Of a stretch of DNA of 64,000 nt, positions 48,598 to 52,080 are shown piece after piece. The DNA is from Moritella sp. PE36 (GTDB lineage: Bacteria; Pseudomonadota; Gammaproteobacteria; Enterobacterales; Moritellaceae). The notes under the pieces were generated by a model. It saw only the letters and a list, made by a program, of their open reading frames with translations, ran no database searches and was not told the DNA's origin. The translations under genes were made by a program, and so were the position numbers. The stretch's first letter is position 1. Every line of letters starts with the position of its first letter. The stretch is from contig NZ_ABCQ01000003.1 in NCBI RefSeq assembly GCF_000170855.1, positions 1 to 64,000 of the forward strand, given 5' to 3'.

Positions 48598-48625
48598 TTG
48601 CGTTAGTTCGGTTCTGTCTTATAAT
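48598..48625 (+). promoter_or_regulatory. Predicted promoter of the exchanger gene
   Basis: TTGCGT (48598-48603), 16 bases and TATAAT (48620-48625). Initiation near 48632 would place the whole riboswitch-like leader in the transcript. Confidence 0.5.
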
Positions 48626-48638
48626 GCCCAAATCTATT

Positions 48639-48816
48639 CGAGGGAGTAGTCGCTTCACGCACGTGAAGGAGTACATCAACATAACTGACCCACAGGTCAT
48701 GGTGTATTCAACCTAGTTCGAGGTTAACAACCCGAGACTAAGTTTGATGAGACTTGAACAAGTAAACACCTACTTTCGAGGGCGGGGTGTCGCTTGTTTA
48801 TGTCAAAATGCCCTCG
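48639..48816 (+). ncRNA. Candidate yybP-ykoY manganese riboswitch leader
   Basis: The leader of the cation-exchanger gene carries the landmarks I know from the yybP-ykoY class: a 5' GGGAGTAG (48642-48649), ATCAACATA in the first arm, paired arms such as TGACC/GGTCA and CGAGGTTAACAACCCGAG, and the 3' GATGAGACTTGAAC (48746-48759). This class binds Mn2+ and often controls Mn or Ca/Mn exporters. Near the gene, CGAGGGC (48777-48783) can pair with GCCCTCG (48810-48816) just ahead of the start codon. The same CCCTCG can also pair with CGAGGG at 48639-48644, giving a candidate switch. Infernal with RF00080 would decide. Confidence 0.65.
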
Positions 48817-48828
48817 TACGAGAATCCT

Positions 48829-49851
48829 ATGTCTTTATTATTACCCATCATTGCAGTGTTAGTTGGCTTTATCTTACTAACAGTAAGTGCCGACCGTCTT
48901 ATCTTAGTATCATCAACATTAGCCAAACAGTTTGGTGTTTCAGTCATGTTTATTGGTATGACTGTCATTGCCTTTGGTACTTCATTCCCAGAATTAGTCG
49001 TCAGCGCAATTGCGTCATTTAATGGTGCAGAAGGTCTTGCGGTCGGTAATGCTATCGGCTCTAACATTATCAACTGTGGTTTAGTATTAGCGCTTTGTGC
49101 CCTGTTTATGCCGTTAGTAATTAAAGTACGTTTTATTAAACGTGAATTACCTATTTTAGTATTCGCACTTATTGCAACTATCGCGTTAATGTCAAACGGT
49201 TCAATTACGATGTGGGACAGTCTTATCCTGATCTTATTGCTTGCACTTTACTGCGTATACCTCGCTAAATCATCGTCTGCTGATGATGTTGAGAACGAGC
49301 TAGAGTTTTTGGATGTTAGCCAGAATCGTGCATTAGTTGAAACTATAGCCATGCTGTTCATGTTATTAATCAGCTCACAAATTATGGTTTGGGGCAGTGT
49401 ACAACTTGCTAAAGCGATGGGCGTTAGCGACTTGTTGATTGGTCTAACGATTGTTGCATTTGGTACCAGTTTGCCAGAACTAGCCGCTGCTATCGCGGGT
49501 GTTCGCCGTGGTATGCCTGAAATTGCATTCGCAACTGTGATTGGTTCAAACACCTTTAACCTATTAGGTGTATTAGCATTCCCAGGGTTAATTGGTGATG
49601 GATTACAACTGCCAGCAGAAGTATTAACGCGTGATTTACCAATGTTATCTATTATGACGGCATTCATGGTTATCTCATTCACAATGACTTATTTTGCTGT
49701 GACTAAACGTCGTGCCGCTTTAACACCAGAACAACAAACAGATGAATTAATTGCGGCAGACAGTAAACTAAACTATCGTTTTGGCCGTCTTTCTGGCGCA
49801 ATACTGTTAACTATGTTTATTGGTTATAGCTGGATACTGTTTACATCATAA
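48829..49851 (+). CDS. CaCA-family cation/Na+ (or H+) exchanger, YrbG-like
   Basis: A 340-residue inner-membrane exchanger with about 10 helices and the two alpha-repeats of the calcium/cation antiporter family: GMTVIAFGTSFPELVVSAIA with AIGSNIINCG, and GLTIVAFGTSLPELAAAIAG with VIGSNTFNLLG. The family moves Ca2+, and in some members Mn2+, out of the cell. The ATG at 48829 has GAGAA upstream; the frame is open from 48787 but that part is inside the leader RNA. A Mn-sensing leader would argue for manganese as a physiological substrate; that is an inference. Confidence 0.9.
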   Translation: MSLLLPIIAVLVGFILLTVSADRLILVSSTLAKQFGVSVMFIGMTVIAFGTSFPELVVSAIASFNGAEGLAVGNAIGSNIINCGLVLALCALFMPLVIKVRFIKRELPILVFALIATIALMSNGSITMWDSLILILLLALYCVYLAKSSSADDVENELEFLDVSQNRALVETIAMLFMLLISSQIMVWGSVQLAKAMGVSDLLIGLTIVAFGTSLPELAAAIAGVRRGMPEIAFATVIGSNTFNLLGVLAFPGLIGDGLQLPAEVLTRDLPMLSIMTAFMVISFTMTYFAVTKRRAALTPEQQTDELIAADSKLNYRFGRLSGAILLTMFIGYSWILFTS

Positions 49852-49915
49852 GTTTTACAGCTTAAAACTATCTAACGCATCAGGTATTCGCTTGATGCGT
49901 TACGTACTTTATTAG

Positions 49916-51298
49916 TTATGGTAATAGTAGCGCCTCATCAATTGCCTTAGCCCTGTCACCATATCGACCACTCACACTGACCATCAAAAACAATAAATAT
50001 CCAAACTGTCCCATTATCGCTAACGATAATAACCAGTAATTCGCGGGATTATATAACGTCAGAATCAACGCAAATAAACTAAAAACATGGCTATATAATA
50101 AGTACTGCATTCGCGATTTACTTAATAGTTCGTGCATATTAGGCAACAGTGAGAACGCCTGCATATGAAATCCACATTGACGTTGCAAGTGCAGGTATGC
50201 CAAAAAAGGAATGATCTTGATGATCATCGCCATGATCACACTGATTATCCAACCATAGATAAATACCGCAGCCAATGTCAGCGGTGACCAACCTAAACTG
50301 AATAACAAGCTCTCTGCTCCCGTCATAGTATTCATCATTACGTGCATCACTAAACTAATCGCACAGCAAAGAAATAAGCAGCATAATGCAATAAACCAAC
50401 AGGTTACACTCACATCGTTAATTTTTCGCTTACGTCTGTTTAAACAATGAATCGCCGTTATTGCATATACCATCAAGCCTAACTTTAATAACGCCGTACA
50501 AATAGATTGAATCATTTGCCATGCGGGAATATTAATCAACGCAAGTTGTGTCATCCCCAAAGTCACTAACGTATGTGCCAACAAGATGATGAATAAAAAA
50601 CCAGGCAAGAAACGAGAGCACCACAATGGAAATGCAGGTGCAACATGAAACATAGGTAACACTTGAAAACTAACACCCATAATCACTAAACTGATCCAGC
50701 CAATCAATCCCCAACTGGCATGGTTATCAGTCAGCTTTTTAGTGATATTAAATTGGCTGGCGAATAAATAATCCGCCAAGAGTAAACTGGCAATAATGCC
50801 CACCACCAGCATCGCAACAAAGCCTAATCGCATGGTATTAATTGATACACTGGCCCGACTTCGTTGCCTAATTAGCCATAATATTACACCGATAAAACCG
50901 CCTAAGCCAAGTGTAAACGACACGCCTGAAACAGCGAAAAAGAGAACCTGACTAAGCCCAAACATACTCGCTAAGAATGCCGTGGTTAACGACAGCGTGC
51001 CTAATGACATCGTCACTAATGTTAACGTGGAAATAAGTTTAACATGAGGGATTGACTTGCCAGCCAGTACCGGTAATAACTGTAAAATTGCGCCACACAT
51101 GATCATGGAAATAATACCCAGCACCATAGCATGAGTCAGCGCGAGCGTGGCAGGATGCCAGCGGGTTAACCACAGAGACTCCCCTGCAAAAGCAATAATC
51201 AATGCGCTGATGAATGCAAATACAGGCGCAGCCAAAAAGAACCGCATCGGCACTGAAAATGCCGGTATATTGTCAAAATCCAATCCAGCAAGATTCAT
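49916..51298 (-). CDS. Polytopic membrane protein, NnrS/heme-copper-oxidase-subunit-like
   Basis: A 460-residue inner-membrane protein with about 12 helices and several helix-embedded histidines (WHPATLALTHAMVLG, VLPMFHVAP, SLVMHVMMN), a pattern like NnrS or cytochrome-oxidase-subunit-I-type heme proteins. The assignment is by pattern and context, not by a decisive motif. It is the third gene of an operon: hemerythrin, DUF2249, this. Its ATG overlaps the DUF2249 stop as ATGA, with GGAG upstream. Similar trios are often linked to nitric-oxide response, so a role in NO or oxygen handling at the membrane is likely but unproven. Confidence 0.7.
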   Translation of the reverse strand: MNLAGLDFDNIPAFSVPMRFFLAAPVFAFISALIIAFAGESLWLTRWHPATLALTHAMVLGIISMIMCGAILQLLPVLAGKSIPHVKLISTLTLVTMSLGTLSLTTAFLASMFGLSQVLFFAVSGVSFTLGLGGFIGVILWLIRQRSRASVSINTMRLGFVAMLVVGIIASLLLADYLFASQFNITKKLTDNHASWGLIGWISLVIMGVSFQVLPMFHVAPAFPLWCSRFLPGFLFIILLAHTLVTLGMTQLALINIPAWQMIQSICTALLKLGLMVYAITAIHCLNRRKRKINDVSVTCWFIALCCLFLCCAISLVMHVMMNTMTGAESLLFSLGWSPLTLAAVFIYGWIISVIMAMIIKIIPFLAYLHLQRQCGFHMQAFSLLPNMHELLSKSRMQYLLYSHVFSLFALILTLYNPANYWLLSLAIMGQFGYLLFLMVSVSGRYGDRAKAIDEALLLP

Positions 51299-51645
51299 GC
51301 TAACTCCATCTCAGAAAATGAGGCTAATGCCGACTCATCGGTTTTAAAAGCAACCTTGATGACAACCGCTAGATCTTCACAACTGCCGTTGCTACGTGCA
51401 TGTTTACTGCTTTGGCTATCACGTAATGCCGTCGAATCATTCAAGCTATACTCAACATCGACTCTATAGACAAAACCTAATTCGGTTAATTTAGGGTATA
51501 ACGGCACGGGATTTTTACGGTGATAAATAACCAGACACTGGCCAGGGGATAGTGCCGCTAACGCCAGCAAAATTTGACGCATCGGCTCCGGAGCGGGTAA
51601 TTCGCTTACATCAAGATCGATTGCTTGCAAGTAATTCGTCTCCAT
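51295..51645 (-). CDS. DUF2249 (TusA/SirA-like fold) protein
   Basis: A 116-residue protein with a DUF2249 domain: LDVSELPAPEPMRQILLALA near 11-30 and GQCLVIYHRKNPVPLYPKL, ending in a FVYRVDVEY strand. The domain is a small SirA/TusA-like fold found beside hemerythrins and denitrification genes; its activity is not known. The ATG at 51645 follows an in-frame TTG; the preceding hemerythrin stop is 4 bases away, so translation is probably coupled. Confidence 0.8.
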   Translation of the reverse strand: METNYLQAIDLDVSELPAPEPMRQILLALAALSPGQCLVIYHRKNPVPLYPKLTELGFVYRVDVEYSLNDSTALRDSQSSKHARSNGSCEDLAVVIKVAFKTDESALASFSEMELA

Positions 51646-51648
51646 CAA

Positions 51649-52080
51649 CTAGTATGCTTTGACTTGCTGTAACACTGCAGCTGCATCCGGAAGGTGAGCT
51701 TGCGTCATTGGATATAACATCTGCTCTTCTTTCATGTTGTGTTGCTGCATTAAGATCATTAACGTTTCAGATAACCCTAAGAATTGATCTTTATTCTGCG
51801 CAGACAATGCCTGCGTCATCTCAGCGACCAATTGACGCATTTGAGCATGTTCAGCACGCATAACTTGCGTTGGTCCCATCGTCATACCCGTCGCCTGTTC
51901 AAATGCTGGGAATAAAATCGTTTCTTCTTGCTGTAAATGGCATTCAAGATCGGTTGTAAATACAGACCATTGGCTATCTGCTTGTATCCAATTGCTTGCC
52001 GATACAGCCGACTCAGTGGCAATAAAAGAATCATCACAATGGCGATGCTGTGCGGTCATAAAAGTAGGAATAGTATCCAT
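51649..52080 (-). CDS. Hemerythrin (HHE) domain protein
   Basis: A 143-residue four-helix hemerythrin-like protein. Potential di-iron ligands are H12 and H14 (TAQHRHCDD), H48 and E52-E53 (CHLQQEETILFPAF), a His in RAEHAQMRQ and H plus Glu in QQHNMKEEQMLYP. The spacing HxxxE and HNMKEEQ is that of bacterial hemerythrin/YtfE-related proteins, which bind O2 or NO or repair iron-sulfur clusters. It starts with GAGGTACTT before the ATG and is the first gene of the operon hemerythrin-DUF2249-membrane protein. Confidence 0.85.
   Translation of the reverse strand: MDTIPTFMTAQHRHCDDSFIATESAVSASNWIQADSQWSVFTTDLECHLQQEETILFPAFEQATGMTMGPTQVMRAEHAQMRQLVAEMTQALSAQNKDQFLGLSETLMILMQQHNMKEEQMLYPMTQAHLPDAAAVLQQVKAY

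Follow-up and report, generated by a model that had tools for sequence, protein, structure and literature searches.

A leader RNA and a cation exchanger gene lie together on the forward strand of the 64-kb window, i.e., the whole stretch of Moritella DNA that was analyzed. The sole Rfam match in this window is to the Mn2+ riboswitch family RF00080 (yybP-ykoY), with a score of 51.6 bits (E value, 8.4e-11; gathering score, 45 bits), or 55.6 bits with laxer filters, and it is placed between a conserved promoter and the exchanger gene (Table 1).

Table 1. Features of the riboswitch-exchanger locus (positions are those of the window)
Feature	Position	Strand	Basis or remark
Promoter: −35 TTGCGT (48598-48603), 16-nt spacer, −10 TATAAT (48620-48625)	48598-48625	+	Conservation
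P1 5' strand UUCGAG, partner 48753-48758	48637-48642	+	Pairs in 15/15 leaders
RF00080 manganese (yybP-ykoY) riboswitch match	48642-48815	+	Rfam covariance model
Aptamer loop L1, GGGAGUAG	48642-48649	+	Same in 15/15 leaders and in E. coli mntP
P2 hairpin CUUCAC/GUGAAG	48653-48668	+	Compensatory changes between lineages
P3 hairpin with internal loop L3	48669-48709	+	Fold and Rfam alignment
Internal loop L3, UCAACAUA	48676-48683	+	Same in 13/15 leaders; the other two each differ by one base
P4, variable stem	48710-48743	+	Fold; insertions in two Moritella genomes
P1 3' strand CUUGAA, ends the GATGAGAC landmark	48753-48758	+	Leader comparison
Anti-P1 5' strand, UGAACAAGU	48755-48763	+	Overlaps P1 3' strand; pairs with 48792-48800 in all Moritella
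Platform CGAGGG, potential partner of 48811-48816	48777-48782	+	Fold and helix comparison
Anti-P1 3' strand, GCUUGUUUA	48792-48800	+	Helix comparison
CCCUCG just 5' of the start codon	48811-48816	+	Pairs with 48639-48644 (unconstrained) or 48777-48782 (P1 constrained)
PF01699/TIGR00367 CaCA exchanger, 340 aa, proposed Mn2+ exporter; alpha-2 motif FATVIGSN	48829-49851	+	Profile matches
13-bp stem-loop 3' of the gene, possible terminator	49873-49902	+	Scan

Leader and gene at the locus

A manganese riboswitch had been predicted here from yybP-ykoY-like landmarks, with an Rfam scan proposed as the check. The landmarks are present (GGGAGTAG at 48642-48649 and GATGAGACTTGAAC at 48746-48759), and the scan returned the RF00080 match above the gathering score. 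P1 closes the aptamer in all 15 leaders compared and is exclusive with an expression platform helix, and P2 is formed by CUUCAC/GUGAAG or, through compensatory changes in another lineage, by UUUUGC/GCAAAA. The metal-site loops L1 and L3 are intact and match those of the E. coli mntP leader. Judged by these features, the RNA is an ordinary member of a known riboswitch class, for which a response to Mn2+ is predicted.

The promoter was assigned by conservation; a generic promoter scan made no call at 48598-48625 because the −35 element is weak. The −35 and −10 hexamers and their spacing are kept in 10 of the 11 Moritella genomes, with TTGTGT as the −35 element of the eleventh, and the flanking DNA is otherwise variable, which bears out the promoter proposed upstream of the leader. 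Across the genus, conservation is strong in promoter, aptamer, and platform and does not extend to the upstream DNA or the P4 stem.

The gene downstream encodes a CaCA exchanger, as predicted: its product scores 193.7 bits with PF01699 (Na_Ca_ex; two stretches; cutoff, 24.9) and 213 bits with TIGR00367, “calcium/sodium antiporter” (cutoff, 179.65). Its score with PRK10734 (NF008005), the equivalog model for E. coli YrbG, is 183.9 bits, below the cutoff of 432, and the exchanger is therefore not filed as YrbG itself. Translation more likely starts at ATG 48829 than at the in-frame ATG 48808, which would lengthen the protein by seven residues (MPSYENP), since the position corresponding to 48829 is where homologues from other lineages start and one Moritella genome (L010) has no ATG 48808. 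The gene looks like a single-gene unit.

Two neighbors on the reverse strand of the window may be recorded. An ATP:guanido phosphotransferase of the arginine kinase type (PF00217 and PF02807; 53184-54260) is encoded here in a bacterial genome; the family is best known from animals. A 460-amino-acid membrane-type protein with no Pfam match (49919-51298) adjoins a DUF2249 protein (51298-51648) and a hemerythrin domain protein (51652-52080).

Distribution of the leader and the exchanger clade

The nearest named loci are from Moritella, with 94 to 98% protein identity. Exactly one RF00080 copy is found in each of the 11 Moritella genomes (over the cutoff in 10), and the gene behind it is the exchanger in all of them (92 to 100% identical). 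Outside Moritella, two other lineages contribute four genomes with a member of the clade, again with the leader in each, so that all 15 exchangers are linked to it. One of these genomes, G083, is the sole carrier of exchanger and leader in a family of four genomes. Genus g21 (227 genomes), which is probably Vibrio, yielded two further clade members, whose leaders score 40.5 and 39.3 bits, under the RF00080 cutoff but with E values of 8.5e-8 or better. No further close member was found among the 369 genomes of the class that were searched, and Rfam detected RF00080 in none of 38 scanned loci of unlinked relatives, including that of the paralogue in the same genome.

The target is unusual within the order. 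Among 345 genomes, the analysis covered 118 RF00080 sites outside Moritella, of which 70 precede GDT1/MneA-type genes and 25 precede MntP-type genes (95 of 118 for these two), 12 precede PF01699 proteins of an Aeromonas type, 2 precede members of the present clade, and 9 are without assignment. In the Aeromonas-type loci (L020 to L034; family f25, genus g35; Aeromonas by inference), RF00080 sites of 62 to 71 bits lie directly 5' of a very divergent PF01699 protein whose alpha motifs are altered (GTALPE...GGPLV and ATEMPE...NISGAMM). Because these proteins lie far from the 15-member clade in a quick tree, CaCA proteins probably came under an RF00080 riboswitch at least twice. Genomes G316 and G297 contain an additional RF00080 site before GDT1/MneA.

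The clade has its own alpha-2 motif, with A-T in 15 of 15 riboswitch-linked exchangers versus G-N in 47 of 47 unlinked relatives. The canonical YrbG-type pattern, GNxxGSN in both alpha repeats, is thus replaced by GN in alpha-1 and AT in alpha-2. The A-T pair corresponds to positions G231-N232 of NCX_Mj. This archaeal Na+/Ca2+ exchanger (PDB 5HXC and 3V5U) shares the fold family and the ion ligand motifs GTSxPE and GSN; it differs in having G-N in alpha-2 and in D240, which is N both in the clade and in its unlinked bacterial relatives. The 15 proteins are monophyletic, with 100% SH-aLRT support and a long stem branch, in the quick tree, for which long-branch warnings were given. As the clade represents one evolutionary event, the correlation of motif with linkage is not independent replication.

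Alternative helices of the expression platform

The original prediction placed two alternative structures next to the start codon, with CCCTCG at 48811-48816 pairing with either of two CGAGGG copies (48639-48644 and 48777-48782). The hexamers are at these positions. CGAGGG occurs 10 times in the window versus 8.0 expected, so only the location of the three matching hexamers and the degree to which they are conserved give the match meaning. The match is present in all Moritella leaders (11 of 11) and, slightly altered, in the four leaders of the two other lineages. The pairing of 48777 with 48811 is supported, and G083 has a C-G to A-U change in this helix. The 48639 copy, however, is made up of a P1 strand and the invariant GGG of loop L1, so that its being conserved adds no independent evidence of pairing, and folding does not predict its pairing with 48811 in the three g21 leaders. 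A symmetrical switch of the two copies was rejected for these reasons.

The switch that covariation supports is instead one between P1 and an anti-P1 hairpin. The strand that closes P1 also starts this hairpin, and by their sequences the two helices are mutually exclusive and could not fully coexist. In the lineages outside Moritella, anti-P1 is formed by CGAACAAC/GUUGUUCG and by CGAGUGA/UCACUCG; among the three lineages, five base pairs of the helix show double-sided changes that preserve pairing. The helices of the 15 leaders were compared singly; a MAFFT alignment misaligns the platform between lineages. When an anti-P1 stem was looked for over 117 RF00080 sites, 43% had a shuffle P value of ≤0.1.

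In unconstrained folds of the Moritella leaders, anti-P1 is formed and CCCUCG is paired with the 5' CGAGGG, while with P1 enforced CCCUCG is mostly paired with the second copy. Predicted start codon accessibility shows no consistent change between the free and P1-enforced states, and start codon masking by simple folding was rejected on this basis. Terminator-type control was also rejected, as there is no stem with a clear U run 5' of the gene and the only scan match (48780-48795) is weak.

Proposed manganese export and its control

Several lines of evidence favor Mn2+ as the substrate of the exchanger. First, MntP (PF02659) has no match in any of the 11 Moritella genomes, and neither GDT1/MneA (PF01169) nor TerC (PF03741) has one above the cutoff in these genomes (two subthreshold GDT1 matches of 22 to 24 bits and weak TerC matches only). 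G083 also lacks all three families, and G306 retains GDT1 and TerC. Second, searching with the exchanger as query gave two or more matches in each Moritella genome, and the genome studied here encodes, besides the riboswitch-linked exchanger, a canonical one with G-N that lacks a riboswitch. Third, the alpha-2 change is specific to the clade. Together these points strengthen the reading of the protein as a Mn2+ exporter, and the displacement argument from genomes suggests that it may serve as the Mn2+ exporter of the cell in place of the absent usual ones. A CDF family protein, present in every genome, could contribute, which counts against this reading. We consider it likely that a genuine Mn2+ riboswitch turns on the exchanger at high Mn2+ and that the exchanger would export Mn2+, probably driven by entry of Na+ or H+.

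The riboswitch could also sense Mn2+ while its target is an exchanger of the ordinary Ca2+ type, or one of mixed Ca2+/Mn2+ type, so that Mn2+ control would tune Ca2+ traffic or the balance between Mn2+ and Ca2+. The above-cutoff match to the “calcium/sodium antiporter” model agrees with this, as does the retention of all NCX_Mj-type ligand positions as in ordinary YrbG proteins, because of which no feature of the site demands Mn2+ rather than Ca2+. Such a role is nevertheless unlikely given that a canonical paralogue without a riboswitch is already present, that the exporters usually controlled by this riboswitch are missing, and that a long stem branch and a distinctive alpha-2 motif set the clade apart.

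The riboswitch would act as an ON switch, turning on expression when cytoplasmic Mn2+ is high. Mn2+ would dock L1 with L3 and stabilize P1, formation of P1 would disrupt the anti-P1 hairpin and the long-range CCCUCG pairing, and the freed leader would allow translation to start, as in E. coli mntP. Regulation would then act on translation, perhaps with Rho. The model draws on E. coli mntP, whose leader switches translation on in response to Mn2+ and also undergoes Rho termination (PMC11647493), because that leader shares the predicted ligand-free topology, with an anti-P1 hairpin and pairing of a 5' G run with a downstream C run, in addition to the L1 and L3 sequences and the P1-P4 layout. The Moritella leader differs in its PF01699 exchanger target, a shorter platform, and a weak Shine-Dalgarno sequence. 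Against the final regulatory step, enforcing P1 does not consistently raise predicted start codon accessibility. This could point to control mainly through Rho-dependent termination rather than start codon masking, and E. coli mntP does combine a riboswitch with Rho termination; we regard that as improbable, however, since the Rho effect in E. coli depends on Mn2+-restored translation (PMC11647493), so that the two mechanisms are not exclusive.

That the leader is a yybP-ykoY variant with a changed ligand (e.g., Ca2+ or another divalent ion), fitting a Ca2+ exchanger, is very improbable: the target gene is unusual, and a review suggests ligand-altered variants, to be expected where the controlled genes are at odds with Mn2+ (PMC7266159), but L1 and L3 are unaltered from the Mn2+-responsive E. 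coli mntP leader.

The riboswitch family is also represented in related marine bacteria. In Vibrio cholerae and V. parahaemolyticus, mneA (UPF0016/GDT1) is under yybP-ykoY control (PMC13274385); riboswitch family and cation exporter target (an exporter role being proposed for Moritella) are alike, whereas the transporter family is different and GDT1 is not above the cutoff in Moritella. Further, yrbG of V. vulnificus is listed under yybP-ykoY control as a RegPrecise prediction, in one sentence that does not discuss function (PMC13274385); riboswitch and gene name are as in Moritella, and the protein probably belongs to the same exchanger clade. Further discussion of the yrbG link was not found in the part of the literature that our search covered. 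The link itself is thus already predicted for V. vulnificus, and the interest is in a clade of exchangers that may export Mn2+ and that seems to have replaced three exporter families.

Bacterial Mn2+ efflux is attributed to four main families (CDF, MntP, UPF0016, and P-type ATPase) plus TerC (PMC13274385). On balance, we lean toward the view that this CaCA subfamily comprises further bacterial Mn2+ exporters that displaced MntP, MneA, and TerC in Moritella, with the very distant Aeromonas-type branch recruited separately to the same riboswitch. The two exchangers of one genome, with and without a riboswitch and with A-T versus G-N in alpha-2, form a pair in which the choice between Mn2+ and Ca2+ is testable. 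If the proposal is true, CaCA exchangers would be a further Mn2+ efflux family, and many annotations as Ca2+/Na+ antiporters would need a second look.
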